A model generated the notes under the pieces. The model was not told the DNA's origin. It did not search any database and saw only the letters and a program-made list of their open reading frames with translations. The position numbers and the translations under genes are program-made. Shown piece after piece: positions 4,033-35,499 of a stretch of 45,938 nt of DNA (position 1 is the first letter of the stretch; every line of letters begins with the position of its first letter). The DNA comes from a virus. The stretch lies in IMG/VR virus record IMGVR_UViG_3300009177_000057, positions 1 to 45,938 of that record; one strand, given 5' to 3'.

Positions 4033-4098
4033 TAGGAAGCCGAAAAATCCTAAGTGGAGCGGGAATTCGCCCGCCCGGTATTATTTGAAGAGATTTCA

Positions 4099-15129: not shown

Positions 15130-15130
15130 G

Positions 15131-16732
15131 ATGACTACCGCTTACATTACCTACACCGGGAAGGGCGACCCCGTCGGAGAGAAGTTTAGAAAGCCGATTC
15201 GGCCGTTCTACGATCTCGACGCGGCCGTTAAATCCGCCGGGGAACTCTCCGATGTCTACGAAGTGGATATCGAGAACCCCGACGCCAACGGCAGGGGAAT
15301 GTGCACGGTCATCAGAAAAGTCGAGAAGGAACCCATGAAGGAAGACGCCAACGCGGAACACTATCACGGCCTGTCTGGCTGGGTTTCCGACTACAAGAAG
15401 GCCCGCAAATTCGGCAACGTCAAGCTGGCCAAAGAAATCAAATCCAACATCGAAGGTGCGATCAAGAAGCACAATCTCGATGCAACCAAAGTCTGGGGCG
15501 AAGACCCCGATCAACCGAAGGAACCCATGAAAGAACACAAAGCAGCAGTGAGTGGCCTCGCCTTTCTAGTCGAGAGTGAACTCGAAAAGGCCCAAGTCGT
15601 CATTGCGGCTAAGGGTATTCTGGACAAGCTTCAGAAGATGGCCGAAGACCTCGCCAAGACCGAAGCCGATGACATCATGCCCATGCTCGACAGTATGCGC
15701 CTGACCTTCGGCCCGGAACTGACCGACAGCTTCAATGATGTCGCCACCGCGAAGCTTCGCCAGACCATGGAAGCCGTCAAGGGCGCCAAGGAAGCGATCA
15801 CCCGCGAAGTCGGCCGCCTCGAAGCCAACGTCAACGGCGAGCAGACCAACGACATGGGCATGGGCGAAGAGCCCGCCGCCGATGACGGTATGGGCGATCT
15901 GGGTGCGGATGACGGTATGGGCGGCCTCGACGGTGACGCCGACATGGGCGCACCGGAAGGTGATCTGGGCGACGAAGCCCCGATGCCCGGCGAGGACGAA
16001 GAAGTCCCGAACCCGGCCGACGACCTCGACGCAGCGTTTGACGATGCCGCACAGGACACCACGGCTGCTGGTCGCGCCAAGAAGGAAAGCATCGAGCGCA
16101 ACGTGAAAGCCCTGAGCGAGTCGAAGAACCCCGACCGCCTCGTGTTCGAGACGTTCCGCCGCACGCTGAAGGAGTCGAGGGACGCCGTCCGCGCTGCTAA
16201 AGCAGTTGCCAACGCATTCGCCATCGACTTCGCCGACGTGGTCGCCATCGTGAAGGAAGGCAAGACCTTCAAGGACGAGAAGGGCAAGACCGACAAGAAC
16301 AAGGATCGTGCTCAGGACCGCAAGGACAAGAAGCGCGACCGTCCGTCCGACATCGACGAGGGGAAGACCTTCAAGGATGAGAAGGGCAAGACCGACAAGA
16401 ACAAGGACCGCTCGGAAGATCGCGCCGCCAAGGCCCGTGACAACAAGAAGCCTTGGGAGAAGGATGACCTCGAAGAGGGCAAGACTTTCAAGGACGAGAA
16501 GGGCAAGAAGAACGAAAACCCCTTCAAGGATCGCGACGAAGCTCGCAAGGCCAAGAAGAAGGGTCAGGACGAGGAACTTGAAGAAGCCGCATTCGGTGGC
16601 AAGCAAGCTCCCGCTTTCGGCAAGCGCAAGCCCGATCCGCTGGCCAAGGTTCCCAACGACCACGCGGACATGAAAGCCAAGTCCACGAAGAAGGTCGCGG
16701 AGGCGACCAAGAAGCCCCCTTTTTCTCGCTGA
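15131..16732 (+). CDS. Late scaffold-like protein with 18-residue repeats, 533 aa
   Basis: ATG 15131 lies just after TAAG; longer readings run into the gene at 14848. Regions in order: a folded N-terminus (1-130, TAYITYTGKGDPVGEKFRKP), a conserved helical segment (about 140-230, LAFLVESELEKAQVVIAAKG, KLQKMAEDLAKTEADDIMPM), an acidic Asp/Gly/Met-rich linker, a second helical part and a Lys/Asp-rich tail with three copies of EGKTFKDEKGKTDKNKDR-like repeats. The helical segment looks conserved with T4-type cyanophage proteins (memory). Charge pattern suggests a scaffold or internal core role. A -1 slippery site sits six codons before the stop and may fuse it to the next frame. Confidence 0.75.
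   Translation: MTTAYITYTGKGDPVGEKFRKPIRPFYDLDAAVKSAGELSDVYEVDIENPDANGRGMCTVIRKVEKEPMKEDANAEHYHGLSGWVSDYKKARKFGNVKLAKEIKSNIEGAIKKHNLDATKVWGEDPDQPKEPMKEHKAAVSGLAFLVESELEKAQVVIAAKGILDKLQKMAEDLAKTEADDIMPMLDSMRLTFGPELTDSFNDVATAKLRQTMEAVKGAKEAITREVGRLEANVNGEQTNDMGMGEEPAADDGMGDLGADDGMGGLDGDADMGAPEGDLGDEAPMPGEDEEVPNPADDLDAAFDDAAQDTTAAGRAKKESIERNVKALSESKNPDRLVFETFRRTLKESRDAVRAAKAVANAFAIDFADVVAIVKEGKTFKDEKGKTDKNKDRAQDRKDKKRDRPSDIDEGKTFKDEKGKTDKNKDRSEDRAAKARDNKKPWEKDDLEEGKTFKDEKGKKNENPFKDRDEARKAKKKGQDEELEEAAFGGKQAPAFGKRKPDPLAKVPNDHADMKAKSTKKVAEATKKPPFSR
16256..16522 (+). repeat. Three tandem-spaced 18-codon repeats
   Basis: Copies begin at 16256, 16358 and 16475, each encoding EGKTFKDEKGK followed by TDKNKDR (third copy degenerates to KNENPFKDR). 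Nucleotide identity between the first two is very high, with changes at third positions. They are separated by about 50-60 bases of charged linker. Confidence 0.85.
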
Positions 16733-19895: not shown

Positions 19896-22370
19896 ATGCA
19901 GGTTCGTAAGCGGAACGGCAGCTATGAGGCTGTTGACCTAAACAAAATCGTTGGTTCTATCTCTCGTGTTTGCGCCGATCTCGGCGAAATCGACATCTTC
20001 AAAGTTGCCACCAAGACGGTTGGTGGTCTGGTGGACGGAGTTTCCACCCGAGAGCTTGATTTGCTCTCCATCCGCAACGCGGTGGGTCTCATCATCGAAG
20101 ACCCGGTCTACTCGAAGGTCGCCGCCCGGCTGCTCTCGAATTTCATCATCAAGGAAATCGACGGGCAGGACATTCAGTCCTTCTCGCAGTCGATTCAGAT
20201 CGGCTACGACCAAGGGCTCATCAACCAGCAGACCTACGATCTGGTGATGGTCAACAAGCGCAAGCTGAACGCGGCCATCAAGCACGAGCGCGACTGGGGC
20301 TTCGAGTTCCACGGCATCCAGACGGTCTACGACCGCTATCTCCTGAAGCACCCCACCCTCGTCTTGGTGGGCGACGACGGCAAGAAGTCGCGTGCGGTCA
20401 TCGAGACCCCGCAATACTTCCTCATGCGCGTGGCCTGCGGCCTGTCCAACGATGCCTCTGAAGCTGTCGAACTCTACAATCTGTTGTCCAGCCTCGAATA
20501 CATGGCATCGACGCCGACCCTGTTCAACTCGGGCACGGCTCACAGCCAAATGTCGTCGTGCTATCTGCTCGACAGCCCGCTCGACAGCCTCGAAGACATC
20601 TACAAGCGCTACGGCGACATTGCGGCCCTGTCGAAGTTCGCGGGCGGCATCGGCGCGTCGGCCAGCCGCATTCGCTCCAAGGGCAGCCACATCAAGGGCA
20701 CCAACGGCAAGTCGAACGGCCTCGTGCCGTGGCTGCACACGCTGTCGGGCTCGGTCGCCGCCGTTAACCAAGGCGGAAAGCGCAAGGGCGCGGCGTGCGT
20801 CTATCTGGAAACCCACCACCCGGACATCATGCAGTTCCTTGAACTGCGCGACAACACGGGTGAGAAGGAACAGCGCGCCTACAACCTGAACCTCGCCAAC
20901 TGGGTGCCTGACCTGTTCATGAAGCGGGTGCAGGAAGACGGTCTGTGGTCTCTGATCGACCCGTCGGTGGCGCCGGACCTGACCGATCTCTACGGCGACG
21001 AGTATGAAGCTCGCGTCCTTGAGATCGAAGCCGCTGGCGACTTCGTCGAGCAAATTCCGGCCCGCAAGCTCTATGGCCGAATGATGCGAACGCTGGCTGA
21101 GACCGGCAACGGCTGGTTGTGCTTCAAGGACACGTCGAACCGTCGCGGCAACCAAGTCGGCGAAGGTGGCATCATCCACCTGTCCAATCTGTGCACGGAA
21201 ATTCTGGAAGTCACGTCGTCCGGCAAGAAGATCAACCTCTCCCGCAAGGAGATGCTGAAGACCACGGCCGCCGATCTGGTTGAGAAGAATATCCGCCTGA
21301 CGGGCTTCGACGTTCAGAATGACGAGTTCGAAACGATCCAAGGCATGGAGACGGCCGTCTGCAACCTCGGCTCGATCAACGTCGGTCGCGGCTACATCAA
21401 GAACGGCAAGCTCGACGTTCAGAAACTCCACAAGAACGTGGCCACGGCCGTGAAGTATCTCGACCGCGTCATCGACCGCAATTTCTACCCGATCCAAGAA
21501 GCCGAATCGTCCAACCTGCGTTGGCGGCCGGTGGGTCTGGGCCTGATGGGTCTGGCCGACTTCTTCTTCCAACTGCGTCTGCCGTTCGAGAGCGATGAAG
21601 CCATCGCCCTGTCGGCCACGATTCAGGAGGAAATCTACTACCAAGCTCTGAAGACTTCCAACGAACTGGCCAAGCAGTTTGGCCCCCACCGCGACTTCGC
21701 GCTCACGCGCGCGGCCAAGGGCGATCTGCAATTCGATCTGGCGGGCGTGGTTCCGAAGGACATGGCGCGTTGGGATGCCCTGAAGGCTGACATCAAGGCG
21801 CACGGCCTCCGCAACTCTCTGCTGATCGCTATTGCACCGACGGCGACCATCGCCCACATCACGGGCGCAGAAGAGTGCATCGAGCCGATCAAGTCGAACC
21901 TCCTGAAGCGCGAAACGCTCTCGGGCGAGTTCATTTCGATCAACCGCTATCTGGTCGATGATCTGAAGAAGCTCGGCCGCTGGGACGCCGATGCGATCAA
22001 CTGCCTGAAGCGCGACGAAGGGTCGATGCAGAAGATTCCGGGTCTGCCGGAGGAACTGTATGCCCTTTACAAGACGGTTTGGGAGATCAGCCAGAAGAAG
22101 GTCATCGAGCACGGCGCAGCGCGCGGTGCGTTCATTGACCAGTCTCAATCGCTGAACACCTTCCTCGACCTGAACAAGTATCCCGAAGAGAAGCGGATCG
22201 GCGTCCTGTCCTCGCTGTATATGTATGCGTGGGAAAAGGGTCTGAAGACGACCTACTATTTCCGCAGCCGTTCTGGTTCGCGCATCGAAAAGGTGACGGT
22301 CTCCGGCGCCACGGCGGTTGTTCCTCAGATGGCGGCCGAAGAGCCGGAAATCTGCGAAGTCTGCACCTAA
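19896..22370 (+). CDS. nrdA: Ribonucleoside-diphosphate reductase alpha subunit (class Ia), 824 aa
   Basis: This catalytic subunit turns ribonucleoside diphosphates into deoxyribonucleotides for phage DNA synthesis, using the radical delivered by NrdB. An ATP-cone regulatory domain opens the protein (MQVRKRNGSYEAVDLNK). The ten-stranded barrel shows the redox cysteine in HSQMSSCYLLD, the conserved NLCTEILE with the thiyl-radical cysteine, and CNLGSINVG. The tail EEPEICEVCT carries the C-x-x-C pair that exchanges electrons with thioredoxin or glutaredoxin. Full length. AGGAC (19881-19885) is the ribosome-binding site. It is followed by a hairpin and a small gene; nrdB lies 1.2 kb further on. 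Confidence 0.97.
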   Translation: MQVRKRNGSYEAVDLNKIVGSISRVCADLGEIDIFKVATKTVGGLVDGVSTRELDLLSIRNAVGLIIEDPVYSKVAARLLSNFIIKEIDGQDIQSFSQSIQIGYDQGLINQQTYDLVMVNKRKLNAAIKHERDWGFEFHGIQTVYDRYLLKHPTLVLVGDDGKKSRAVIETPQYFLMRVACGLSNDASEAVELYNLLSSLEYMASTPTLFNSGTAHSQMSSCYLLDSPLDSLEDIYKRYGDIAALSKFAGGIGASASRIRSKGSHIKGTNGKSNGLVPWLHTLSGSVAAVNQGGKRKGAACVYLETHHPDIMQFLELRDNTGEKEQRAYNLNLANWVPDLFMKRVQEDGLWSLIDPSVAPDLTDLYGDEYEARVLEIEAAGDFVEQIPARKLYGRMMRTLAETGNGWLCFKDTSNRRGNQVGEGGIIHLSNLCTEILEVTSSGKKINLSRKEMLKTTAADLVEKNIRLTGFDVQNDEFETIQGMETAVCNLGSINVGRGYIKNGKLDVQKLHKNVATAVKYLDRVIDRNFYPIQEAESSNLRWRPVGLGLMGLADFFFQLRLPFESDEAIALSATIQEEIYYQALKTSNELAKQFGPHRDFALTRAAKGDLQFDLAGVVPKDMARWDALKADIKAHGLRNSLLIAIAPTATIAHITGAEECIEPIKSNLLKRETLSGEFISINRYLVDDLKKLGRWDADAINCLKRDEGSMQKIPGLPEELYALYKTVWEISQKKVIEHGAARGAFIDQSQSLNTFLDLNKYPEEKRIGVLSSLYMYAWEKGLKTTYYFRSRSGSRIEKVTVSGATAVVPQMAAEEPEICEVCT

Positions 22371-22384
22371 CTCGGCTTGACCCT

Positions 22385-22417
22385 CGCGACCCTCACACCC
22401 ATACTGTGGGGGTCGCG
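22385..22417 (+). promoter_or_regulatory. Hairpin covering the ribosome-binding site of the next gene
   Basis: CGCGACCCTCAC (22385-22396) pairs with GTGGGGGTCGCG (22406-22417) with one mismatch. The right arm contains the G-rich ribosome-binding site and abuts the ATG at 22418. It has no T-run, so it is a weak terminator but a plausible translation block. Confidence 0.55.
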
Positions 22418-22627
22418 ATGACGTTGACTGTCGGTATTAACGCTCAGCAGTTCGGGCATTCGCCCCCGCTTAGGCCCAGAAAGCTGAGCACCAAAATCGA
22501 CCCGAGTCGGGTGGTAGCATTCACTTTAGGCGCCGGAAACGGAGTCACCGAATTCGATAGCAGCAGCAGGCTGTGGATAATGCTTCCACGGGCGAAGGGT
22601 GTGGATGTTGTAGGGACCGGGAGCTAA
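22418..22627 (+). CDS. Hypothetical protein, 69 aa
   Basis: The ATG at 22418 is preceded by GGGGG at five-base spacing. The product reads MTLTVGINAQQFGHSPPLRP and ends VDVVGTGS. It is small, basic and Ser/Pro-rich with no recognisable domain. Its start is sequestered by a hairpin. It ends shortly before a terminator. Low-level or regulated expression after nrdA is possible, and it could also be non-coding. Confidence 0.45.
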   Translation: MTLTVGINAQQFGHSPPLRPRKLSTKIDPSRVVAFTLGAGNGVTEFDSSSRLWIMLPRAKGVDVVGTGS

Positions 22628-22644
22628 ACCGGATCGAGACGATC

Positions 22645-22674
22645 AGGGCCGTGGCGAAAGCTGCGGCCCTTTTT
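22645..22674 (+). terminator. Terminator with GAAA loop, fused to a promoter
   Basis: AGGGCCGTGGC (22645-22655), GAAA, GCTGCGGCCCT (22660-22670), then TTTTT. The T-run leads through CG straight into a TTGACG box. The same design occurs at 32337-32372. Confidence 0.85.
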
Positions 22675-22676
22675 CG

Positions 22677-22705
22677 TTGACGAGAATTTTCCGCACAGCT
22701 ACGGT
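22677..22705 (+). promoter_or_regulatory. Early-type promoter
   Basis: TTGACG (22677-22682), 17 bases, TACGGT (22700-22705). The expected transcription start falls on or next to the ATG at 22711, so the message may be leaderless. Confidence 0.55.
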
Positions 22706-22710
22706 CAGCT

Positions 22711-22902
22711 ATGGAGAAAGCTCCCGATTGCCGAGACTGCTGGTTTCGCTCGTTCGACATGGACGGCGAATTCTGCACGCACGATCTCAGCATGAAGGTC
22801 ACGATGTTCGGGCTCGGCCTGAACGCCATGCGCCGGGAGGGCGCAGACTGTGGCCCGGACGCGACCCTCTACCAGCACAAAGATGAAGTGCCCTTCGAAT
22901 GA
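22711..22902 (+). CDS. Small cysteine-rich, zinc-ribbon-like protein, 63 aa
   Basis: The pattern C-x2-C (MEKAPDCRDCWF), a third Cys in EFCTHD and a fourth in REGADCGPDA suggests one zinc site built from four cysteines. The layout (CxxC near the start and R-x(n)-CGPD near the end) is that of a small family I have seen in many phages without a function. It is the first gene of a three-gene early unit; it may be translated from a leaderless message. Its stop overlaps the next start. Confidence 0.7.
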   Translation: MEKAPDCRDCWFRSFDMDGEFCTHDLSMKVTMFGLGLNAMRREGADCGPDATLYQHKDEVPFE

Positions 22903-23051
22903 AAGTGGTCGGCGGGGTTGGCTTCAAAAAAACCTACACAGAAGCGGAGTGGCAGGAGATCGAGCGCCAGCGTGACGAGATGCGTCACCGCTTGACCGCG
23001 CCCGATGGCTGCCAATGCGCCATCTGCAAACCTCCACAGAAGTCCAAATGA
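22899..23051 (+). CDS. Small protein with C-terminal Cys pair, 50 aa
   Basis: Begins with ATG overlapping the previous TGA: MKVVGGVGFKKTYTEAEW. A charged helix (QEIERQRDEMRHRL) is followed by CQCAICKPP near the end, a likely metal-binding knuckle. No family recognised. Coupled on both sides by ATGA overlaps, which supports reality. Confidence 0.6.
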   Translation: MKVVGGVGFKKTYTEAEWQEIERQRDEMRHRLTAPDGCQCAICKPPQKSK

Positions 23052-23422
23052 TGACCTTTGCTGAACTCGAAGCGGAGGCGCTGAGTGTCCTCGGAATCCA
23101 TCTCCGAGACGCCACCCAAACGTTCGCGCATTACGATACGTGGGTGAAGCTCTACAAGCCCCGTGGGACGGCTCAAGCGAAATGGGCGGAATACCAACAC
23201 CATCCTCACGGACAGGCCCAGCAGCCGCCCTATCGCGACGTATGGCACTGGCTAATCGACAAATTCCCCACCGACGACTGGATCGAGACCAGCAGCAATC
23301 GTTACAAGGATGTCGTCCTCACGGAACGCACCTTGGATCGCGAATGGGTCCGCCTCATTCTGGCGCCGTTGATCGCCCGGCATGGCGGCAAAATTGAGCT
23401 TCGTCTCAACGTCGATACCTGA
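23048..23422 (+). CDS. Hypothetical protein, 124 aa
   Basis: ATG at 23048 overlaps the previous TGA. The N-terminal helix (MMTFAELEAEALSVLGI) is followed by a Trp/His-rich part (WHWLIDKFPTDDWIETSS) and a C-terminal strand-rich part (LIARHGGKIELRLNVDT). It is the last gene of the operon that starts at 22711. No domain recognised. Confidence 0.65.
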   Translation: MMTFAELEAEALSVLGIHLRDATQTFAHYDTWVKLYKPRGTAQAKWAEYQHHPHGQAQQPPYRDVWHWLIDKFPTDDWIETSSNRYKDVVLTERTLDREWVRLILAPLIARHGGKIELRLNVDT

Positions 23423-23431
23423 CGAAAAATA

Positions 23432-23480
23432 TTGAGATTCGTCCTGCCGACTCCGTAGGATGAACCATGGTTAACGAAAA
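23432..23480 (+). promoter_or_regulatory. Early-type promoter with downstream GGTTAACGAAAA box
   Basis: TTGAGA (23432-23437), 18 bases, TAGGAT (23456-23461), seven bases, then GGTTAACGAAAA (23469-23480). The promoter of the primase has the same box at the same distance. A bulged hairpin (CCGATCCCG...CGGGTTATCGG) follows before the late promoter. No other gene lies in 23423-23575. Confidence 0.5.
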
Positions 23481-23535
23481 GCCTTCGTCCTCCTATTGCC
23501 ACTAACCGATCCCGTATTCTCGGGTTATCGGGGCA

Positions 23536-23542
23536 CTAAATA
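23536..23542 (+). promoter_or_regulatory. Late-type promoter CTAAATA upstream of nrdB
   Basis: CTAAATA, 33 bases before the nrdB start, the same distance as at nrdA. Confidence 0.6.
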
Positions 23543-23575
23543 TACATTCAAATCATAATGCTTTAGGAGAATACT

Positions 23576-24583
23576 TTGTCCAACATTCTCGACCCGGTTG
23601 TGTCACTTACACTTCGTCCGATGAAATACCCCAAGTTCTACGAGATGTATGAAAAGTCCGTCGGGAACAACTGGACCAAACAGGAAATTTCCTTCGCCAC
23701 CGACCTCGCTGACCTGCGGGAGAAAATCTCCCCGGCCGAGCGGCATATCGTGAACCGTCTGGTGGCGTTCTTCGCGACTGGCGACCAGATCGTCTCCAAC
23801 AACGTGGTGCTGACCCTCTACAAGCACATCAATTCCCCCGAGGCCCGCGTGTTCTATTCGCGCCAAGCCTACGAGGAAGCCAACCACATCGACTTCTACC
23901 TTCAACTTCTCGACAGCTACATTCCCGATCACGGCGAACGTGCGGAAATGTTCAACGCCATCGAGACGGTGCCGAGCATCAAGGCGAAGGCCGAGTGGGC
24001 GTCGAAGTGGATGGACCAGATGTCCTCCATCGACATGCTTGAGACGGATGAGCACCGTAAGACCTTCTTGATGAACCTGCTGGCGTTTGCCACCGGAGTC
24101 GAGGGTCTCTTCTTCTTCGCAGCCTTCGCCTACGTCTACTATCTGCGCGACCGTGGTCTCCTTCATGGGCTCGCATCCGGCACCAATTGGGTGTTCCGCG
24201 ATGAGTCGATGCACATGATGTTTGCGTTCGAGATCATCAACGTCATCAAGGCCGAACTTCCCCACCTGTGGGACGAAGACATGCAGCAGCGTGTCCGCGA
24301 CATGCTGGAAGAAGCCATCGAGTGCGAAATGATGTTCGCCACGGACGTGCTGTCCATCGGCATCGTCGGTCTGAGCATCAAGGACATGCGCGAATATCTG
24401 CGTTTCGTCGCGGATGGCCACATGCGCAAGCTGGGCATGGAGCCGGTCTATAACGCCGTGTGCCCGTTCGACTTCATGCTGAAGCAGGACGTGCAAGCGC
24501 TGACCAGCTTCTTCGAACGCACGGTCGCGGAATACACCGTCGGCATCGGGGGCGAAGTCGATCTGGATGTTGAGGATTTCTGA
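23576..24583 (+). CDS. nrdB: Ribonucleoside-diphosphate reductase beta subunit (class Ia), 335 aa
   Basis: This subunit holds the di-iron centre and tyrosyl radical used by NrdA. Iron ligands and radical Tyr appear in order: the Asp in ATGDQIVSNN, E-x-x-H-x-x-x-Y in YEEANHIDFY, Glu in GVEGLFFFAAF, and E-x-x-H in FRDESMHMM. The C-terminal tail (GEVDLDVEDF) is the acidic docking peptide for NrdA. Length is normal. The start is TTG at 23576, placed five bases after AGGAGA; no ATG is suitably placed. Two promoters (one early-type, one late-type) precede it, so supply of deoxynucleotides may continue into late infection. Confidence 0.96.
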   Translation: MSNILDPVVSLTLRPMKYPKFYEMYEKSVGNNWTKQEISFATDLADLREKISPAERHIVNRLVAFFATGDQIVSNNVVLTLYKHINSPEARVFYSRQAYEEANHIDFYLQLLDSYIPDHGERAEMFNAIETVPSIKAKAEWASKWMDQMSSIDMLETDEHRKTFLMNLLAFATGVEGLFFFAAFAYVYYLRDRGLLHGLASGTNWVFRDESMHMMFAFEIINVIKAELPHLWDEDMQQRVRDMLEEAIECEMMFATDVLSIGIVGLSIKDMREYLRFVADGHMRKLGMEPVYNAVCPFDFMLKQDVQALTSFFERTVAEYTVGIGGEVDLDVEDF

Positions 24584-25835: not shown

Positions 25836-25846
25836 CGTTAACATGG

Positions 25847-25886
25847 AAAGTGGTGGTGGGCTTAACTTCCCGCCACCACTTTTTTC
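25847..25886 (+). terminator. Rho-independent terminator
   Basis: AAAGTGGTGGTGGG pairs with CCCGCCACCACTTT around a short loop, followed by TTTTTT. A TTGACG promoter begins twelve bases further on. Confidence 0.85.
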
Positions 25887-25897
25887 GTGAAATCTCG

Positions 25898-25926
25898 TTG
25901 ACGAGATGTTTTTTATCCCCTAGACA
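25898..25926 (+). promoter_or_regulatory. Early-type promoter of the ABC/OmpA operon
   Basis: TTGACG (25898-25903), 17 bases, TAGACA (25921-25926). It shares CGTTGACGAGA with the promoter at 22677. The leader of about 45 bases carries AAGGGA before the ATG at 25978. Confidence 0.6.
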
Positions 25927-25977: not shown

Positions 25978-26724
25978 ATGGCGGGTAAAAAGGGTTTCTT
26001 GAGCGGCATTGTTGATGCAGCCAAGTCCGAACTGTTCGACGACGACGAAAAGACGCACACTGCCGATCCGGCCGTCGCTGCGGCTCAGGCTCCCCCGGCA
26101 CCGGCGCCCACGCCGACGATGCCCTACACGTTCGGCACCAGCCCTGCTGGCGCAACGACCCCGATCTCGTCTCCGGCAGGCATGGTGATGCCCGGCGCCC
26201 CGGAACCGGTGGACCCCAAGGTCTTCGAGATGGTCTCCGGCGGCGTCTTCATCGACATCGCGGAAGGCGCGAAGTCTCGCCCGTCCCGCTACATGATGTT
26301 CAGCAAAATGTGGGACGCCCTCGGACGCCCGGCGGACGCCAACGTCCCGCTCCGCGCCATGCAGGTCAACGACAGTTCCATCACGCCGGTCGCCGTCCTC
26401 AAGGACATCGACGCGCACCTGAAGCTGCTCGACGGCGTGGCCGCCAACGCCGCGACCGAACTCGACAACGCAGCCGCCCAAAAGCTGGGCGGCGCCGATC
26501 AGCAACTCGCGGCCCTCACTCAGGCCAACGAGGCGGCGGCTCGCGAGATCGAACGCCACACGAAGGAAACCGCCGAGCGGAACACGCAGGCGATTGCCAT
26601 CCAAACCCAACGCGCGACGGACGAAGCGAACATCAATCGCGCCAAAAGCCGCACCCAAGCCGCCGTGGACATGGTCCGCGCGCAGCTTCAGGGCGCGCGA
26701 AACCTGTTCGCAACTCTGTCCTAA
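25978..26724 (+). CDS. Coiled-coil protein, first gene of the ABC/OmpA operon, 248 aa
   Basis: A charged N-terminus (MAGKKGFLSGIVDAAKSELF) leads to a Pro/Ala linker (about 33-80), a small folded part (VFEMVSGGVFIDIAEGAKSR) and a long C-terminal coiled coil (about 140-240, Ala/Glu/Arg-rich, EAAAREIERHTKETAERNTQ). There is no membrane segment. It is probably a cytoplasmic partner of the membrane protein encoded next. I do not recognise the family. The very regular GC-rich codon use continues through all five genes. Confidence 0.75.
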   Translation: MAGKKGFLSGIVDAAKSELFDDDEKTHTADPAVAAAQAPPAPAPTPTMPYTFGTSPAGATTPISSPAGMVMPGAPEPVDPKVFEMVSGGVFIDIAEGAKSRPSRYMMFSKMWDALGRPADANVPLRAMQVNDSSITPVAVLKDIDAHLKLLDGVAANAATELDNAAAQKLGGADQQLAALTQANEAAAREIERHTKETAERNTQAIAIQTQRATDEANINRAKSRTQAAVDMVRAQLQGARNLFATLS

Positions 26725-26751
26725 CCCCGATCAAGACTGGACCTGACCAAC

Positions 26752-27777
26752 ATGTCTGACACCAACTCCCCGAACGAGTGGCATCCGCCGCAGGAAAAAT
26801 ATATCCGCTGGGGCATCAACGGCGCGATCATCGCGGCGCTGGTGTTCGGCGGGTCCATTGTCGTGAAGCACGTCGTCCCGACGATCAGCGACGCCTTCCT
26901 GCTCCTTCAGACCCTCACCGAGAACATGATCTATCTCGCGCTGACGGTCGGCGCGCTGGTCGTGGTCGGCTGGCTGCTGCTGGAAATCCTGTCCCCCAAG
27001 GGCCGGATCAACAAGCTGTTCGCCCAAGCCTATTCGAGCTTCATCCACAACATGACGCTCGAACTGCTGAACGTCGATCCGATGTCGCCCCTCAAGGACA
27101 GCCTCGCGGCCGTCGAAGAGAAGAAGAAGACCTACGACGAGCAGTTCGCGCAGTTCGACGGCCAGATTTCGGTCTTCAAGCAGAACGAAGATCAGTTCCG
27201 CGCCCAAGCGCTGGAAGCCGAGAAGCGCGCCAAGGCCGCCAACTCCAAGGGCGACACCGTCAACTTCGAACGGCTGGGCTATCAGGCCGGTGAAGCCAAC
27301 AAGACGGCCGACGGCTTCGCCGCCATGCGCGCCCGCCTTGAGCCGGTTCGCGGGATCATCGTCCGCCTGCAACAGGCCGCCGACGACCTGATCTTCAAGC
27401 TGGGCGTGGACATCCAGAACACGCAAGCGACGTGGGACGCCGCCAACAACATGTCGAAGATGGAGCGCGCCGCGCGCGGCATCCTCGCCAACCAAGGCAA
27501 GAACGAACTTGCCAAGGAAGCCCAGATGCTCGTGCAGACCAAGTATGCCACCGCCATCGGCCGCTTGGAGAACCTGAACGACGCCGCCAAGCCCCTGCTC
27601 GACAACATCGACTTGGACAAGGCGACCTACAGCCAAGACTTGCTGGAAAAGTGGCAAGCCGAAGACCGCGCCAACCAAATGGTCGCGATCCCGGTCCACG
27701 CCAGCGTCGTGGCTCCGCTGGCCATCCCCGGTCAGAAGACCGCAGCCGGTGGCTTCGGTGGCCTGATCGACAACTAG
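26752..27777 (+). CDS. Membrane-anchored coiled-coil protein of the ABC/OmpA operon, 341 aa
   Basis: Two hydrophobic helices lie near the N-terminus (about 22-44, INGAIIAALVFGGSIVV, and about 58-82, MIYLALTVGALVVVGWLLLE). They are followed by a long, mostly helical cytoplasmic-looking domain (DSLAAVEEKKKTYDEQFAQF, KAANSKGDTVNFERLGYQAG). The helical part recalls PspA or ESCRT-III-like coiled coils in pattern, but that is a resemblance only. It sits between a coiled-coil protein and the binding protein and may link the transporter to a cytoplasmic partner or the envelope. Confidence 0.75.
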   Translation: MSDTNSPNEWHPPQEKYIRWGINGAIIAALVFGGSIVVKHVVPTISDAFLLLQTLTENMIYLALTVGALVVVGWLLLEILSPKGRINKLFAQAYSSFIHNMTLELLNVDPMSPLKDSLAAVEEKKKTYDEQFAQFDGQISVFKQNEDQFRAQALEAEKRAKAANSKGDTVNFERLGYQAGEANKTADGFAAMRARLEPVRGIIVRLQQAADDLIFKLGVDIQNTQATWDAANNMSKMERAARGILANQGKNELAKEAQMLVQTKYATAIGRLENLNDAAKPLLDNIDLDKATYSQDLLEKWQAEDRANQMVAIPVHASVVAPLAIPGQKTAAGGFGGLIDN

Positions 27778-27783
27778 GACTAC

Positions 27784-27807
27784 GGGTGCGGCCTAACCGC
27801 CGCACCC
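27784..27807 (+). other. Intercistronic hairpin upstream of the binding-protein gene
   Basis: GGGTGCGGC, six-base loop, GCCGCACCC: a perfect 9-bp stem without a T-run. It could protect the downstream mRNA or act as a partial terminator. Confidence 0.7.
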
Positions 27808-27877
27808 CACTACCACTACCGAATACCAGTAAGCGTAACCCCATCAACAACGACCAGACCAGAAAAGGGACCATCCA

Positions 27878-29650
27878 ATGGCTGGACTCAAGACTCGATA
27901 CAAGGTGGCGGCCATCGCCATCCTCGCGGGCGGGGCGCTCTTCGGCGTCAAGACCCTCATCAGCACCGGCGTCATCAAGCCGCCGCCGGGCCTCGCGGCT
28001 TTCGCGCCGACCAAGACCAACAACACCCTGACGGGCAACGTGACCGCCGCCGTCGCGAGCTATGAACTGGCCGCGCAACCGGCCAGCGGCATGACCGGCT
28101 GTCCCCGGATGCTCGCCATCGCGTGGAACGGCGCGGCGCCGATCACGCTGGCCAACGGCGGCGTGACCACGTCCGACGACTCCCTCGTGAAGAAGTATGC
28201 CGGTGGCTGCTTGAAGATCGAGCGTCAGGACGACTACGGCGTCCAGAAGGACGAACTGGTGAAGTTCGCCCAAGGCGTGAAGAACGGCGAAGCCAACCCG
28301 CAAGGCGCGGCCTTCACGATCATGATGGGCGACGCCTACGCCGCCTACGCTCAGTCGCTCCAAGAGCGCATGGGCGCCCTCGGCCAGCAGGTCGTCGTGG
28401 TCGGCATCACCGGCTTCTCCTACGGGGAAGACAAGGCGATGGGCAAGCCGCTGAACGGCAACCCCCAGTCCGCCAAGGGCAGCCTGATCGCTGGCGTCCC
28501 CTACGACGGCGACTGGAACACCATGGTGAAGTGGGCGGGTGACAACAACATCCGCATCAACGCTCGCCAAGACACCTACGACGTGGACGCCATCAACACC
28601 GTGGACACCCAGTCGTTCACGGACGCCGATGACAAGTATGCCAACGGCTACCACGAAAAGCGCAAGGTCATGAAGGACGGCAAGCTGACCGGCGAAGTCC
28701 GTGACGTGACCGTGGACGGCGTGCTGACGTGGTTCCCCGGCGACCGCTTCGTGGTCACCAAGAAGCCCGGCCTGACGACTTGGGCGTCCACCCACGACTA
28801 CAACCAGCAGATGCCTGCGGTCATCATCACGACGAAGTCGTGGGCCGACTCGCACCGCGCCTACATCGTCGGCCTTCTGCGGGCCTTCGACCGCGCCGCT
28901 TTCGACATTCGCTCGGGCGACGGCGTGACCAAGCTGGGCAAGACCCAAGCGGCCGTCTACGGCACCGCCGGTGGCGAAGAAGCGACTGCTGACTTCTGGA
29001 CCAAGGCGTTCACCGGCTACGACTACACCGACACGCAGGGCAACACCGTTCGTCTGGGCGGCACCCGCGCCGTCACGCTGGCGGAAGTCCGCGACTACCT
29101 CGGCCTGACGCCGGGCGCGCTGAACGTCTACAAGGGCGTCTACACGACCTTCGGCGACTACGCGCACGCCTTCTACCCGAAGGACGTGCCGTCCTATCCG
29201 AAGTTCGAGGATGTCGTTGACACCTCGTTCGTCACGGCGGCGCTGGCCGGTGTGCAGACTTCGGTGGCCTCGACCTTCACGGCCTCCAAGTCGATCACCC
29301 AGCAGGTCTCGGCGAAGGACTACAGCATCGAGTTCGCCACGGGCTCGAACAAGCTGACCCCGGCCGGGTATCGCACCCTGAACCAGATCGCCAACTCGGT
29401 CGGCATGACCGGGCTGCGGGTTCGGATCACGGGCTACACCGACAACACCGGCAACGACGCGGCCAACCTGACCCTGTCGCGGGCTCGCGCCCAAGCGGTG
29501 GCGGATGCGCTCTTCGCGCTGGCTCCCAAGACGTTCCCCAACGAACGGATGGAAGTCCAAGGTCTGGGTTCGTCGAACCCGGTGGCCGACAACACCACCG
29601 AAGCCGGTCGTTCGAAGAACCGCCGGGTGGAGATCGCGCAGGGCAACTAA
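27878..29650 (+). CDS. ABC-importer substrate-binding protein fused to a C-terminal OmpA domain, 590 aa
   Basis: An N-terminal hydrophobic helix (about 8-26, KVAAIAILAGGALFGVKTLI) should anchor or export the protein; there is no lipobox. About residues 65-460 form a periplasmic binding-protein-like domain of the NitT/TauT kind (segments such as AVIITTKSWADSHRAYIVGL, AYAAYAQSLQERMGALGQQV). The last 110 residues are an OmpA peptidoglycan-binding domain: YSIEFATGSNKLTPAGY, GYTDNTGNDAANLTLSRARA, then GRSKNRRVEI. The protein could thus be tied to the cell wall while it feeds the permease encoded downstream. The substrate cannot be read from sequence. Confidence 0.85.
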   Translation: MAGLKTRYKVAAIAILAGGALFGVKTLISTGVIKPPPGLAAFAPTKTNNTLTGNVTAAVASYELAAQPASGMTGCPRMLAIAWNGAAPITLANGGVTTSDDSLVKKYAGGCLKIERQDDYGVQKDELVKFAQGVKNGEANPQGAAFTIMMGDAYAAYAQSLQERMGALGQQVVVVGITGFSYGEDKAMGKPLNGNPQSAKGSLIAGVPYDGDWNTMVKWAGDNNIRINARQDTYDVDAINTVDTQSFTDADDKYANGYHEKRKVMKDGKLTGEVRDVTVDGVLTWFPGDRFVVTKKPGLTTWASTHDYNQQMPAVIITTKSWADSHRAYIVGLLRAFDRAAFDIRSGDGVTKLGKTQAAVYGTAGGEEATADFWTKAFTGYDYTDTQGNTVRLGGTRAVTLAEVRDYLGLTPGALNVYKGVYTTFGDYAHAFYPKDVPSYPKFEDVVDTSFVTAALAGVQTSVASTFTASKSITQQVSAKDYSIEFATGSNKLTPAGYRTLNQIANSVGMTGLRVRITGYTDNTGNDAANLTLSRARAQAVADALFALAPKTFPNERMEVQGLGSSNPVADNTTEAGRSKNRRVEIAQGN

Positions 29651-29665
29651 GCCCACGCACGAGAC

Positions 29666-29689
29666 GAGGGGCGGGTTCGCCCGCCCCTC
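29666..29689 (+). other. Very stable UUCG-loop hairpin between binding protein and permease
   Basis: GAGGGGCGGG-TTCG-CCCGCCCCTC, a perfect 10-bp stem followed by CT-rich sequence (CTCTTTCTCTTTT). It is a likely partial terminator that would make more binding protein than permease. Confidence 0.75.
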
Positions 29690-29716
29690 GATCCTCTTTC
29701 TCTTTTCGGAGTTCCC

Positions 29717-30517
29717 ATGTCTAAGTTCCTGTCTGCCTTCATCCCCAACGAGAAGACTGACCGACAGGTCACCCTTACGCTCGTCGCCGGATGGCTGATC
29801 CTCACTGCTGCGACTTGGGTGATCCTCACCAATGGCGCGCAGGTTCGGGACCAGATCGTTCCCCTTCTCCCCAGCCCCAAATCCGTCGGTGCCGCGTTCG
29901 GCAAGGAAATGGGTGGTGGCGCTATCTACCAACTCATCACCAGCCTGACCGTCAGCCTCGAAGCGATCTTCCTCGCGACGGTTATTGGCCTCGGCATCGT
30001 CTATGCCGCCACTGCTGCGGCGTTTCGTCCCCCGGCCATCTTGATTGGCTCGTTTCGCTTCCTGTCGCTGGCTGGTATCACGGTCATCTTCATGATGGTC
30101 TTGGGCGGCCATGCCTTGAAGGTCGGCATTCTGGCCTTCTCGATGATGACCTTCTTCGTCGGGGACATGCTTCAAGTGGTTGACGACATTCCCGAAGCAC
30201 GGTTCGACCATGCTCGCACGCTCGGCCTCTCCAAGTGGGGCGTCCTGCGTGAGGTGGTCATCCGGGGCACTCTCTCGGAAGCCTTCGAAAGCGTCCGCAA
30301 GAACGCCGCCATCGCGTGGATGATGCTGACCAGCGTCGAGGCGATTTCCCGCTCGGAAGGTGGCATCGGGCTCCTGCTCGTGACCCTCCAACGGAGCGGC
30401 CAGTATTCGTCGATCTTCGCGATCCAACTGCTGATCTTCATGGTTGGCATGGCGCAAGACCGGGCTCTGAAATACGGCAAGGCGCTGACTTGCCCCTACA
30501 CCGTGAAGGGCCGCTAA
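29717..30517 (+). CDS. ABC importer permease, NitT/TauT type, 266 aa
   Basis: About six hydrophobic helices are visible (for example VTLTLVAGWLILTAATWVIL, LEAIFLATVIGLGIVYAATA, FLSLAGITVIFMMVLGGHA). The cytoplasmic coupling loop has the EAA-type signature in EARFDHARTLGLSKWGVLRE, which docks on the ATPase encoded next. Length is normal for a one-domain permease working as a homodimer. It would sit in the host inner membrane. A helix-rich segment at the end (SIFAIQLLIFMVGMAQDRAL) matches the last helix of the family. Confidence 0.88.
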   Translation: MSKFLSAFIPNEKTDRQVTLTLVAGWLILTAATWVILTNGAQVRDQIVPLLPSPKSVGAAFGKEMGGGAIYQLITSLTVSLEAIFLATVIGLGIVYAATAAAFRPPAILIGSFRFLSLAGITVIFMMVLGGHALKVGILAFSMMTFFVGDMLQVVDDIPEARFDHARTLGLSKWGVLREVVIRGTLSEAFESVRKNAAIAWMMLTSVEAISRSEGGIGLLLVTLQRSGQYSSIFAIQLLIFMVGMAQDRALKYGKALTCPYTVKGR

Positions 30518-30518
30518 C

Positions 30519-31484
30519 ATGGGCGAGAAATTCATTCCTTTCGCGCCGGGCTTCGCCGCTCCTGCGGCAGCACCGGCCCCGGCGGCTCCTGCTGTGGTTC
30601 CTGCGGCTCCCGCCGCTGAAGCAGCAGTCACCGTGTTCCCGACCCCGAAGAAGGCGCCGATTCCCGGTGACTACAGCTACTCGCTGAACGAGGTTCTTCT
30701 CGAAGTCAGCAAGCTGAATGTCCACTACGATTCGCCGATCCTTCGGGACGTGGACTTTACGATCCGCAACATCATCCGGCCCGGCTACACGCAAGGTCAG
30801 GTTGACGCCCTGCTCGCTCCCTCTGGGATGGGCAAGACCCAACTGTTTCGTTGCATCTCCGGCCTGAAGACCCCAAACTCCGGTTCGGTGATGATTGGCG
30901 AAGGCAAGGAAGCCACTCGCGCCGGTAAGGTCGGTGTCGTGGCTCAGGACTATCCCCTGTTCGCCCACCTGACCGTCTTCGACAACGTGCTGATGGCTGC
31001 GAAGCTGAAGCTCGATGCGAAGGATGCGGCCGACAAGACCATCTCGATGCTCGAACGCTTCGAGTTGGACCAACGGCGCGACATGTATCCGCATCAGCTT
31101 TCGGGCGGCCAGCGGCAGCGTGTGGCGATCATCCAGCAGATGGTGGCCTGCGGCCATCTCCTGCTGATGGACGAACCCTTCTCGGGCTTGGACATCCTGA
31201 TGAAGGAAAAAGTTCAGGACATGATTACGTCGCTCGCGGCGGAAGATGAAATGAACTCGATCATTCTGACGACGCACGACATTCAGAGCGCCATCGCGGT
31301 GGCGGACACCATCCTCGTGATGGGTCGCGAACGCGACGAGAAGGGTCAGCCCATTCCGGGCGCCCGGATTGTCAAGACGTTCGATCTGATGGAGCGCGGC
31401 CTCGCATGGAGACCGGATGTCACCAAGCTCCCGCAGTTCCACGAACTGGAACGCGAGATCACGGCGATGTTCCACGATCTCTGA
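30519..31484 (+). CDS. ABC importer ATP-binding protein, 321 aa
   Basis: It has all nucleotide-binding motifs: Walker A APSGMGKT (100-107), Q-loop Q143, signature LSGGQ (194-198), Walker B LLLMDEP (214-220) and H-loop H253. It drives transport by ATP hydrolysis as a dimer under the permease. An unusual Ala/Pro-rich extension (about 12-48) precedes the normal domain, similar in composition to the linker in the first gene of the operon. The start ATG follows the permease stop by one base. A terminator follows. Confidence 0.93.
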   Translation: MGEKFIPFAPGFAAPAAAPAPAAPAVVPAAPAAEAAVTVFPTPKKAPIPGDYSYSLNEVLLEVSKLNVHYDSPILRDVDFTIRNIIRPGYTQGQVDALLAPSGMGKTQLFRCISGLKTPNSGSVMIGEGKEATRAGKVGVVAQDYPLFAHLTVFDNVLMAAKLKLDAKDAADKTISMLERFELDQRRDMYPHQLSGGQRQRVAIIQQMVACGHLLLMDEPFSGLDILMKEKVQDMITSLAAEDEMNSIILTTHDIQSAIAVADTILVMGRERDEKGQPIPGARIVKTFDLMERGLAWRPDVTKLPQFHELEREITAMFHDL

Positions 31485-31509
31485 CCTCTGGTCAGGTCAG
31501 ATGGGGGAG

Positions 31510-31540
31510 CCCCGGTGGGACTTGTGCCTGCCGGGGTTTC
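31510..31540 (+). terminator. Terminator ending the ABC/OmpA operon
   Basis: CCCCGGTGGG (31510-31519), loop, CCTGCCGGGG (31527-31536), then TTT. It lies between two convergent genes and could work in both directions. Confidence 0.75.
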
Positions 31541-31541
31541 T

Positions 31542-32219
31542 TCATGCGTATTGTTCGGGTTGATCGACAACGAACCATTCGGCCTGCGGGCCGCTGTAGT
31601 GGCTCTCGTCTCGTAGGCGCATTCGCCATTTCAGCACGTCATCCAACGCGACGCCTTGGATCGGCCGGTCGATCTCCAAGACCGTGCCGGTGTGTTCCGC
31701 AAAATCTTTTGCAGTTTTGTAGTTGGCGGACCACGAGTGGAACCCGCGTTTGTTGCTGCGCTCCCGACTGAAGGGTTGCTGACCGCGATATAGGTGCTTG
31801 CGCACCGGCGGGCTGATCCGCTTCAGGATCGACAGGAACCGCGCCGCCAGTTCCGGGTGCTCTTCCCCGTGGTCGGCGTTCCACGTCCAACCGCTGATGA
31901 AGCTGATAAGATCATCGTCGTCGGCAATCAGCGCACATGCCGTCTCGTAACTAATTGGTCTGTTGGAAGCCCTAAGAGCGGGCAGGGCAGCCTTGACCTT
32001 GTCGATGCCCCGTTCTTGCGCTCGCCGCAGAACACCTCTCACTCGTTCGCTTTCGAGCCGCTCGATGGCTCCGTCAACGCCCTTTCCCAGCTTCACATAG
32101 AAGGCAAGGTCTTCCGGCGATAGCGGATAGCGAGCCAGACGATCTGCGTCCTTGGGTTCGATACCGAACGCCCTGAAAGCATCGTAGTCCACGGCTTCGA
32201 AAATTTCGGTCCAACGCAT
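31542..32219 (-). CDS. Putative ADP-ribosyltransferase with targeting tag, 225 aa
   Basis: The C-terminal half has the R-S-E layout of ADP-ribosyltransferases: R145 in HLYRGQQ, S162/S164 in FHSWSAN, and Q212-A-E214 in SGPQAEW, a Q-x-E catalytic pair. These enzymes move ADP-ribose from NAD to a target. I start it at the ATG at 32219 because CTAAATA ends four bases upstream, as in the two related genes; longer in-frame starts exist. The resulting N-terminus MRWTEIFEAVD holds I-F-E-A, an ideal T4-type prohead-protease site. It may therefore be packed in the head and injected like T4 Alt. The target is unknown. Confidence 0.75.
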   Translation of the reverse strand: MRWTEIFEAVDYDAFRAFGIEPKDADRLARYPLSPEDLAFYVKLGKGVDGAIERLESERVRGVLRRAQERGIDKVKAALPALRASNRPISYETACALIADDDDLISFISGWTWNADHGEEHPELAARFLSILKRISPPVRKHLYRGQQPFSRERSNKRGFHSWSANYKTAKDFAEHTGTVLEIDRPIQGVALDDVLKWRMRLRDESHYSGPQAEWFVVDQPEQYA

Positions 32220-33921: not shown

Positions 33922-35499
33922 ATGGAAATCCTCTCGCAAATTCTCGCTAAAGCGTTCACCGACGAAGGGCTAGATGCTGCGCTGGCAGTGGTCTCCCCCT
34001 CCGAGCGGCCGGACCTTGCTGATTTCCAATGCAACGGCGCTTTCCTCGCTGCCAAGACCGCTAAGGTGAACCCGCGTGCGTTGGCCGAACGGGTGATCGC
34101 GCGGATCAACCATCCGGGCATCAAGTTCGAGGTGGCGGGGCCGGGCTACATCAACATGACGGTCGGCGCCGAGATTCTCGAAGTCCTGCTGGGTGGCGAT
34201 CACGGCATAGAATTTTCCGGGCGGATCGTGCTGGACTTTGGTGGCCCGAATGTCGCCAAGCCGATGCACGTCGGCCACATGCGGTCGCTGGTGATTGGTG
34301 ACAGCCTGCAACGGATTTTGCGGTTCGCGGGCTACGAGGTGCTGTCCGATATCCACCTTGGCGACTGGGGGCTCCAAATGGGTCTCTTGCTGGTTGCCTT
34401 GGAAGGCACACCGCTGCACGATTACACCATCGAACTGCTCGAAGAGACCTACCCGCAGGCTGCGGCTCGGGCGAAGACCGATGAGGCTTTCAAGCTCAAG
34501 GCGCAGAAATTTACGCAACTGCTTCAGCAGGGCGACGAAGAGCTTTTGAAGCGGTGGCGGAAGATGGTGGCCGTAAGCATGGCCACGGTCGAGCGGGAGC
34601 TTAAGGCGCTCGATGTCAACTTCACGATGATGAAGGGCGAGAGCGACGTGCAAAGCCTCGTCGAGCCGATGATGACGCTGTTCGACGGCATCGCCGAAGA
34701 GGACAACGGTGCCTTGATCGTGCGGCTGTCCACGGAAGCGCCGCTGATCCTGCGGAAGTCGGACGGCGCGGCGCTCTACGCCACGACCGATCTCGCCACC
34801 ATCCTCGACCGGCGGAAGTTTGCGCCGGACAAGATCATCTACGTCACTGACGAACGGCAGCAGCTTCACTTCCAACAAGTTTTCGAGACGGCCAAAAAGG
34901 TCAAGCTCGCAGACGACATGGAATTGGAACACATCTGGTTCGGCACGGTGAACGACACCAACGGCAAGCCGCTGAAGACGCGGGCCGGTGGTGTGCCGAA
35001 GCTGCATGACCTGATTCAGGAGGCCATCGCCAAGGCGGCCGAGAAAAACGAAGCATCCGCGACGGTGGTGGCCATGGCCGCCCTGAAATTTGCGGACCTT
35101 CAGAACCCTCGGACGGGTTCGTATGCCTTCGATCTGGACAAGTTCCTCAGCTTCGAGGGCAAGACCGGCCCCTACCTGCTCTATCAAGCGGTGCGGATCA
35201 AATCTATCCTCGCCAAGTCTGTGGAGCCGGGCGACATCAAGCTCGAAACGGAGCAAGAGCGGGCGCTTGCCTTCAAACTGGTGTTCGGTTTTTCGCAGGC
35301 CGTAAACGCCGCCGTGCGGCGGCTGTCGCCAAAAGAAATCGCCGATCACACCTATGATTTGGCGCAAACGTTCTCTAAATATTATGCCAACACCCAGATC
35401 GCGGAAAACCCGTCTCGGGTGGCGTTGGCAACTCTCGTTCTCGAACAATTGGAGTGCAGCTTGGGGCTGCTCGGGATCGAAATTCCTGATCGGATGTGA
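33922..35499 (+). CDS. argS: Arginyl-tRNA synthetase, 525 aa
   Basis: This class I synthetase charges tRNA-Arg. It shows the arginyl-type signature GPNVAKPMHVGHMRS (108-122, the HIGH motif HVGH 116-119), the YATTDLA segment (286-292), KPLKTRAGG (349-357, taking the place of KMSKS as in other ArgRS) and the anticodon-domain entry FEGKTGPYLLYQAVRI (411-426). The C-terminus ends in PDRM. It is slightly shorter than typical bacterial enzymes but looks complete, with all catalytic motifs. Codon use matches the phage, so it is not a recent host pick-up. Phage synthetases are rare; it may keep Arg-rich translation going as host enzymes fail. Confidence 0.95.
   Translation: MEILSQILAKAFTDEGLDAALAVVSPSERPDLADFQCNGAFLAAKTAKVNPRALAERVIARINHPGIKFEVAGPGYINMTVGAEILEVLLGGDHGIEFSGRIVLDFGGPNVAKPMHVGHMRSLVIGDSLQRILRFAGYEVLSDIHLGDWGLQMGLLLVALEGTPLHDYTIELLEETYPQAAARAKTDEAFKLKAQKFTQLLQQGDEELLKRWRKMVAVSMATVERELKALDVNFTMMKGESDVQSLVEPMMTLFDGIAEEDNGALIVRLSTEAPLILRKSDGAALYATTDLATILDRRKFAPDKIIYVTDERQQLHFQQVFETAKKVKLADDMELEHIWFGTVNDTNGKPLKTRAGGVPKLHDLIQEAIAKAAEKNEASATVVAMAALKFADLQNPRTGSYAFDLDKFLSFEGKTGPYLLYQAVRIKSILAKSVEPGDIKLETEQERALAFKLVFGFSQAVNAAVRRLSPKEIADHTYDLAQTFSKYYANTQIAENPSRVALATLVLEQLECSLGLLGIEIPDRM

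Follow-up and report, generated by a model that had tools for sequence, protein, structure and literature searches.

What might a phage do with a five-gene operon in which a complete ABC importer, its binding protein ending in a wall-binding domain, follows two genes, one of them resembling PspA/Vipp1? The window (the whole stretch of DNA analysed, 45,938 bases) is a complete IMG/VR record, classed as linear and without end repeats, and it comes from a phage, since a primase, DnaB, a virion structural protein and a ribonucleotide reductase (RNR) pair are encoded on it. The operon occupies positions 25978-31484 and consists of five co-directional genes (g1 to g5) on the + strand, with a strong GC bias at the third codon position. 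An earlier note, made from the sequence alone, had described a permease, a motif-complete ATPase, a binding protein with an OmpA end and two leading genes, and this anatomy was borne out at the following positions:

25842-25889, + strand: terminator hairpin of the preceding gene, ending in a T run (RNA fold -28.7 kcal/mol, z -6.8)
25892-25907, + strand: second, weaker terminator-like stem upstream (terminator scan)
25978-26724, + strand: g1, 248 aa; Ala/Pro-rich N-terminal half, coiled coil in the C-terminal half, no TM helix
26752-27777, + strand: g2, 341 aa; two N-terminal TM helices, then a PspA/Vipp1-like helical hairpin (residues 108-242, positions 27073-27477)
27878-29650, + strand: g3, 590 aa; N-terminal TM anchor, NitT/TauT-type solute-binding domain (residues 77-460), OmpA-like domain (residues 486-582, positions 29333-29623)
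29665-29690, + strand: GC-rich hairpin between g3 and g4 (fold z -4.5)
29717-30517, + strand: g4, 266 aa; BPD / NitT-TauT type permease with the EAA-like loop ARTLGxSKW
30519-31484, + strand: g5, 321 aa; ABC ATPase with the full set of catalytic motifs
31501-31545, + strand: terminator-like hairpin at the end of the unit (fold -33.2 kcal/mol, z -3.6)

The unit had been proposed to lie between a terminator-promoter junction and an end terminator. Both terminators are present as hairpins; the promoter part was not borne out, no sigma-70-type site being found on the + strand by a scan whose coverage does not extend to Bacteroidota-type promoters. The hairpin inside the operon is possibly an attenuator or a processing site.

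The last three genes match the parts of a full ABC importer whose binding protein is anchored to the wall, as had been predicted, the assignments coming from profiles and structural models. The g5 protein matches ABC_tran (6.4e-23), and its Walker A K106, Q143, SGGQ, D218-E219 and H253 are present in 53/53 members of the family. The g4 permease is diverged, with a Pfam BPD permease match of 1.2e-4 that lies under Pfam's cut-off, and it is identified by NCBIfam SaoP (6e-12), with NtrB also matched, and by PDB profiles of CmpB (3e-14) and of a nitrate permease (1e-10); T168, G170 and W174 of its EAA-like coupling loop are found in 55, 52 and 51 of 55 members, respectively. The binding region of g3 has no Pfam match in the source record, and NMT1_2 matches, up to 7e-10, occur in 4 of 16 members of its family, the source-record protein not among them. 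A periplasmic binding-protein fold, the presence of which had been set beforehand as a check, was recovered by Foldseek from the AF2 model (pLDDT 85.7), with CmpA (2i4b, 1e-9), NrtA and TauA as matches. This domain, about 80 residues larger in some phage copies and a few bacterial ones, has an invariant set made up of S181, G183, D185, P287, D289 and T305. The peptidoglycan-binding OmpA end is likewise confirmed by Pfam (1.2e-19), and its matches include the Acinetobacter baumannii OmpA structures PDB 3td3-3td5. The residues D522 and R537, which we take to be ligand residues from their role in A. baumannii OmpA, are kept in 55/55 members. A search of a viral structure library with g3 returned only OmpA ends and a single weak match to an uptake protein, and no full-length fusion of a solute-binding protein to OmpA.

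The two leading genes had been regarded as a coiled-coil pair forming a cytoplasmic module, one member having two membrane helices. The membrane helices are in g2 (residues 20-38 and 55-73), g1 having no hydrophobic helix, and the idea of a like pair needs revising, as g2 is, by profile, family model and predicted fold, a relative of PspA/Vipp1 of the ESCRT-III superfamily, while g1 is unrelated to it by profile. When the g2 profile was aligned with that of PspA (hhalign), a probability of 93-94% and an E-value of about 1e-7 were obtained; the same comparison, run with g1 as a control, gave 0.6%, and g1 was rejected as a second PspA-like protein. PF04012 matches a bacterial g2 (1.2e-6), the g2 of the source record alone having no Pfam match, and 20/20 of the weak g2-profile matches that were read also score with the PspA profile. 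Helices at residues 112-165, 169-242, 251-284 and 295-310 of the predicted model (pTM 0.49) correspond to the hairpin of helix 1 and helix 2/3 of PspA/IM30 and to its helices 4-5. Vipp1 structures are the top Foldseek matches, with a probability of 1.00 and an E-value of only 6e-3, long hairpins being a common shape.

The five-gene order is present in 33/36 phage contigs examined, among them the complete circular Lak-B5 genome and phage records of 462 and 735 kb, the latter the largest. Since the order repeats in dozens of phages, chance is excluded, and since it is kept in phages of up to 735 kb while protein identities fall to about 11-25%, the system must do something important for these phages. 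All five genes are under purifying selection, with dN/dS mostly between 0.02 and 0.35. Besides the cassette itself little is conserved nearby in the phage loci, and no metabolic neighbour gene is. The closest relative of the cassette lies on a 278 kb record (L007), which was rejected as the lineage of the source record: the virion protein and another large protein are unmatched there and the RNR is merely 34-36% identical. The virion-protein mismatch and the low RNR identity imply that the cassette moved between phages, or that the lineages are very distant.

Five genes in matching order also form a chromosomal operon in some Bacteroidota, often with an AAA+ ATPase gene following it; this partner (an AAA_lid_6 protein) is absent from 14/14 phage records tested. 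The gene g1 occupies the equivalent place in phage loci and Bacteroidota copies, and a gene-neighbourhood search, named beforehand as a test of whether the first two genes belong with the transporter, found them constantly linked to it. Some bacteria carry the g1-g2 pair without the transporter, so that an obligate coupling is not established. Pseudomonadota were rejected as a reservoir, with 0 clear matches in 399 genomes and one of four weak matches being that genome's PspA. Phage and bacterial copies are intermixed in a quick tree of g3, which, with long branches and no outgroup, gives no direction of transfer between them. Because the gene order is common to phages and Bacteroidota, giant phages appear to maintain envelope machinery of a host type and not a lone transport gene.

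The identity of the genes, their order, conservation and selection, the intact catalytic and wall-binding residues and the kinship of g2 with PspA are read from the sequences; complex formation, polymerisation, the solute and the benefit to the phage are what we infer from them. The explanation that we favour, with moderate confidence, is that in an infected Bacteroidota-type cell the phage keeps up a membrane scaffold of the PspA type, coupled to an importer that is tethered to the wall, the operon being a copy, carried by the phage, of an envelope operon of Bacteroidota. In this scheme g4 and g5 would make up an ABC importer of the NitT/TauT type, seated in the inner membrane of the infected cell, and g3, with its N-terminal helix in the same membrane, would offer its solute-binding domain to the permease while its OmpA-like end grips peptidoglycan. 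Because g3 is proposed to hold both inner membrane and peptidoglycan, the importer would be pinned between membrane and wall. On the cytoplasmic face, the hairpin of the membrane-anchored g2 may polymerise or act as a scaffold, with g1 as its soluble partner, and solute uptake or ATPase cycling could be coupled to how the scaffold is assembled. Together, these parts would preserve an area of the inner membrane and keep it supplied while a phage with a very large genome goes through its long infection. The earlier note had left a choice between rebuilt uptake and an importer chassis used for envelope control; given the kinship of g2 with PspA the latter is the better alternative, neither function being demonstrated.

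A plain nutrient importer, in which auxiliary metabolic genes let the phage take up more of a single solute of the NitT/TauT type (sulfonate, nitrate, urea, bicarbonate, a thiamine precursor or similar) and g1-g2 are assembly helpers, is a distinct though minority possibility. The catalytic motifs are intact and the named families nearest to the bacterial counterparts are of this kind (urea-type TIGR03427, 5e-23; SsuA, 2e-20; TauC; SaoP; taurine ATPase, 4e-62), but tethering the binding protein to the wall has no obvious nutritional purpose. Moreover, a nutrient auxiliary metabolic gene is usually a host-type gene acquired by one or few phages, whereas here phages that are very distant from one another retain the full set, PspA relative included, without a conserved metabolic neighbour. 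By analogy with FtsEX and BceAB signalling, the importer could instead serve as a sensor, g3 detecting a periplasmic ligand or wall strain and the ABC ATPase signalling the g2 scaffold to assemble or dissolve without net transport, with possible roles in envelope remodelling, delayed lysis or the exclusion of other phages. A single protein spanning membrane, periplasm and wall beside a PspA-type partner would suit this arrangement, and the occurrence of g1-g2 apart from the transporter is what one would predict for an effector module whose inputs can be exchanged; nevertheless, the importer-type EAA loop of g4 and the invariant set of g3 suggest, without proving, a ligand pocket and transport, and we consider the sensor rather doubtful.

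Host-type homologues in Bacteroidota would also allow the phage copies to be dominant-negative parts that poison a PSP-like or transporter complex of the host. This is improbable, as one part would suffice for a decoy, yet all five genes, with all catalytic residues, persist under purifying selection. That host DNA was wrongly assembled or wrongly called viral, as a linear metagenomic record lacking end repeats might suggest, has a negligible probability: the cassette shares its record with phage genes for replication, a virion protein and RNR, and the spread of the cassette over independent phage assemblies, the circular Lak-B5 among them, refutes it. A more speculative explanation, somewhat unlikely as it stands, is that huge Bacteroidota phages encode a self-contained ESCRT-III-type machine, anchored by its own TM helices and tied through a wall-bound ABC transporter, which builds or maintains a specialised zone of the inner membrane in the infected cell, and that the bacterial operons may partly descend from phage copies.

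Compared with known systems, the permease, ATPase and binding-protein fold are those of the NitT/TauT-type importers (TauABC, SsuABC, NrtABCD and CmpABCD), while g3 differs in being membrane-anchored at one end and OmpA-fused at the other, and the phage adds a gene for a PspA-like partner. PspA and Vipp1 (IM30) share with g2 the DP motif that opens helix 1, the long helical hairpin and the profile and fold matches, but they are soluble proteins with an amphipathic helix, in place of which g2 has two N-terminal TM helices. The wall anchors MotB, ZorB and Pal resemble g3 in their OmpA-like domain, with ligand Asp and Arg 15 residues apart (the match to ZorB is 3e-12), whereas g3 has no MotA-like channel partner and is linked to an ABC importer. 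A Zorya-type defence system was rejected, as the OmpA domain alone matches ZorB, there is no ZorA MotA-like channel and no other PADLOC part fits. In the Jug huge gut phages (PMC12363816) a pspA-like gene adjoins terD; these are also huge phages with such a gene, but the context is that of TerD, an ABC transporter or OmpA is unmentioned in that paper, and no TerD was found in the 14 phage records tested here.

The closest precedent is bacterial, and the statement in the earlier note that no described system has this gene set does not hold: the operon exists in Bacteroidota, and Ravi et al. 2024 (mSystems, PMC11237479) noted bacterial operons in silico, in one paragraph, with PspA/TM-Snf7 homologues, an AAA+ ATPase, an ABC ATPase, a permease and a PBPB-OmpA protein, and proposed a link between transport and remodelling. 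No report of the five-gene system in phages was found among the huge-phage papers searched. With this system, phages possess both a protein like PspA/Vipp1 and a full importer tethered to the wall; the operon of Ravi et al. becomes open to experiment, and there is a tangible starting point for asking how phages of very large size deal with the host envelope while they infect. The two versions share the ABC ATPase, the permease, a solute-binding domain and OmpA in one protein and a TM-bearing PspA/Snf7 homologue, and they differ in that the bacterial operons include the AAA+ ATPase, without which the phage version is built.

The window is linear, has 58% GC and, at 45,938 bases, is the complete IMG/VR record; its replication, virion and ribonucleotide reductase genes identify it as phage DNA. 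The five-gene operon (g1-g5) described in the earlier note was confirmed in its place, downstream of the ribonucleotide reductase genes, as five plus-strand genes between two terminator hairpins. The promoter claimed for the upstream junction was not borne out, as no sigma-70-type site was found on the plus strand of the window.

Features of the window
2049-3125, DNA primase
4054-5550, DnaB
15017-16732, virion structural protein
19896-24583, ribonucleotide reductase, both subunits
25842-25889, strong terminator hairpin, upstream border of g1-g5
25978-26724, + strand, g1, coiled-coil protein
26752-27777, + strand, g2, helical protein with two transmembrane (TM) helices
27878-29650, + strand, g3, binding protein with OmpA domain
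29665-29690, very stable GC-rich hairpin between g3 and g4
29717-30517, + strand, g4, permease
30519-31484, + strand, g5, ABC ATPase
31501-31545, terminator hairpin, downstream border of g1-g5
33922-35499, 525-aa protein, full-length strong match (1.8e-117) to phrog_15344, a phage family without assigned function

The hairpin between g3 and g4 perhaps sets the expression ratio of these two genes. Antisense to g2-g5 runs a 1078-aa open frame (27395-30631, minus strand) that apparently arises from the high GC at third codon positions and can trap gene callers that favour the longest frame.

Sequence matches identify g5 as an ABC ATPase and g4 as a NitT/TauT-group permease. The g3 protein begins with a hydrophobic helix, in which no cleavage site or lipobox is obvious by eye; the binding domain comes next, and an OmpA domain forms the C-terminus. 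With its AlphaFold2 model (pLDDT 85.7, 27-row alignment), Foldseek returned CmpA, NrtA and TauA for the binding part, in agreement with the proposed binding-protein fold, and OmpA-like domains that bind the cell wall for the C-terminal end. In the 53-55 members compared, from phages and bacteria, all ATPase catalytic residues checked are invariant, as are S181, G183, D185, P287, D289 and T305 of the g3 binding domain and D522 and R537 of its OmpA domain; an Asp/Arg pair with identical 15-residue spacing binds diaminopimelate in A. baumannii OmpA. The sequences show that g3-g5 encode a transport-competent ABC set plus a membrane-to-wall bridge.

By itself, the window g2 protein gave zero matches. 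Its model, in which two TM helices precede a long helical hairpin that is itself followed by two shorter helices, shares the helical layout of PspA/Vipp1, from which it differs by the two TM helices in front, and Vipp1 gave the top Foldseek matches (E 6e-3, prob 1.00). The Pfam PspA_IM30 model matches one bacterial g2 at 1.2e-6, and when profiles are compared with each other, g2 and PspA match at 93-94% probability, the near-invariant g2 Asp-Pro falling on the EDP in PspA helix 1; for g1 the probability is 0.6%. Weak g2-profile matches over 248 Bacteroidota genomes lie mostly within frames of ~250-280 aa, and 20/20 examined score with the PspA profile. We take g2 to be a TM-anchored protein of the PspA/ESCRT-III superfamily, which may polymerise. 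The wall-tied importer of the earlier reading stands, on sequence and g3 fold; its view of the coiled-coil pair needs revision, as g2 is PspA-type and g1 is not.

Phage relatives comprise LR756500 (462 kb), LR756501 (735 kb), the Lak phages (~545 kb; represented by Lak-B5, TAG translated as Gln) and 32 more IMG/VR contigs, many of 100-512 kb, against 45.9 kb for the window record. The complete set occurs in the same order in 33 of 36 phage contigs (window counted); L008 and L017 are truncated at the end of the available sequence and L030 lacks g5. Since some contigs are near-copies of each other (e.g. L010/L019, L031/L039, L018/LR756500), independent lineages are fewer than contigs. Extra reading frames intervene between the genes in some phages, notably Lak; those inserted in Lak-B5 are unrelated, and downstream of its intact ABC ATPase lies a 101-aa frame (L005:11754-12059) similar to the C-terminal region of that protein. 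When neighbouring frames were clustered, g1-g5 came up at almost every locus and a single further family recurred, in six. The dN/dS ratio is 0.02-0.35 in every pair but the distant one of the window and L007, a 278 kb phage record with the closest set, where the values rise to 0.62 for g2 and 0.38 for g3 and synonymous sites are almost saturated. These comparisons show long-term retention of g1-g5 as a block in phages. The window virion protein has no match in the records of its g1-g5 relatives. Bacteroidetes hosts were predicted for phages >634 kb and for Lak (Al-Shayeb et al., PMC7162821).

A GTDB genome scan gave 298 relatives; Bacteroidota account for nearly all of the best 80, and the full gene order is present in about 46 of these 80, many others being interrupted by contig ends. 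The first two genes are thus linked to the transporter in both phages and bacteria. Bacterial copies sit on long chromosomal contigs, one (L130) adjoining an apparent ATP synthase operon, as read from its genes, and many are followed by a SpoVK/CbbX-type AAA+ ATPase. In even samples, strong g2 matches occur in 11/248 Bacteroidota (seed included) and 0/399 Pseudomonadota genomes. The g1-g2 pair can stand alone, because 6 of the 11 have no g3 match anywhere, g1 mostly adjoining g2. Solitary pairs missing the transporter were seen at L133-L136, L139 and L141 (Bacteroidota; no g3 match in the genomes checked), and some genomes hold two g2 loci. The long g3 binding domain of the window also occurs in a few Bacteroidota (L128-L131), two of which group with the window and L007 in the g3 tree (support 91; long branches). 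Bacterial g4 (L061, L042, L119 and others) often carries an extra segment, some 60 to 300 residues long and mostly close to the N-terminus, which is absent from phage copies. Complete g3 on short contigs of MAGs labelled Thiotrichaceae and Fibrobacter (L055, L105) is probably mis-binned Bacteroidota or transfer.

The g1-g5 products may join in one complex, with g2 assembling on the inner membrane, by which the phage would preserve the envelope of the infected cell and keep it supplied. The phage form has no AAA+ ATPase in the 14 records tested; if scaffold disassembly depends on such an enzyme, the activity would have to come from the host or from the ABC ATPase of the set. Alternatively, g1-g5 could be a nutrient importer with helper proteins, a sensor chassis or a decoy.

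Bacterial PspA/Snf7-AAA+-ABC-PBPB-OmpA operons were mentioned in silico by Ravi et al. (2024, PMC11237479), whose main text says nothing of phage genomes in this context. The five-gene set is absent from the searchable huge-phage papers and jumbo-phage reviews, a provisional result for the literature searched. The earlier statement that no such system is described is contradicted by these bacterial operons. The phage set is a novel, phage-carried form of an operon known from bacteria only in silico.
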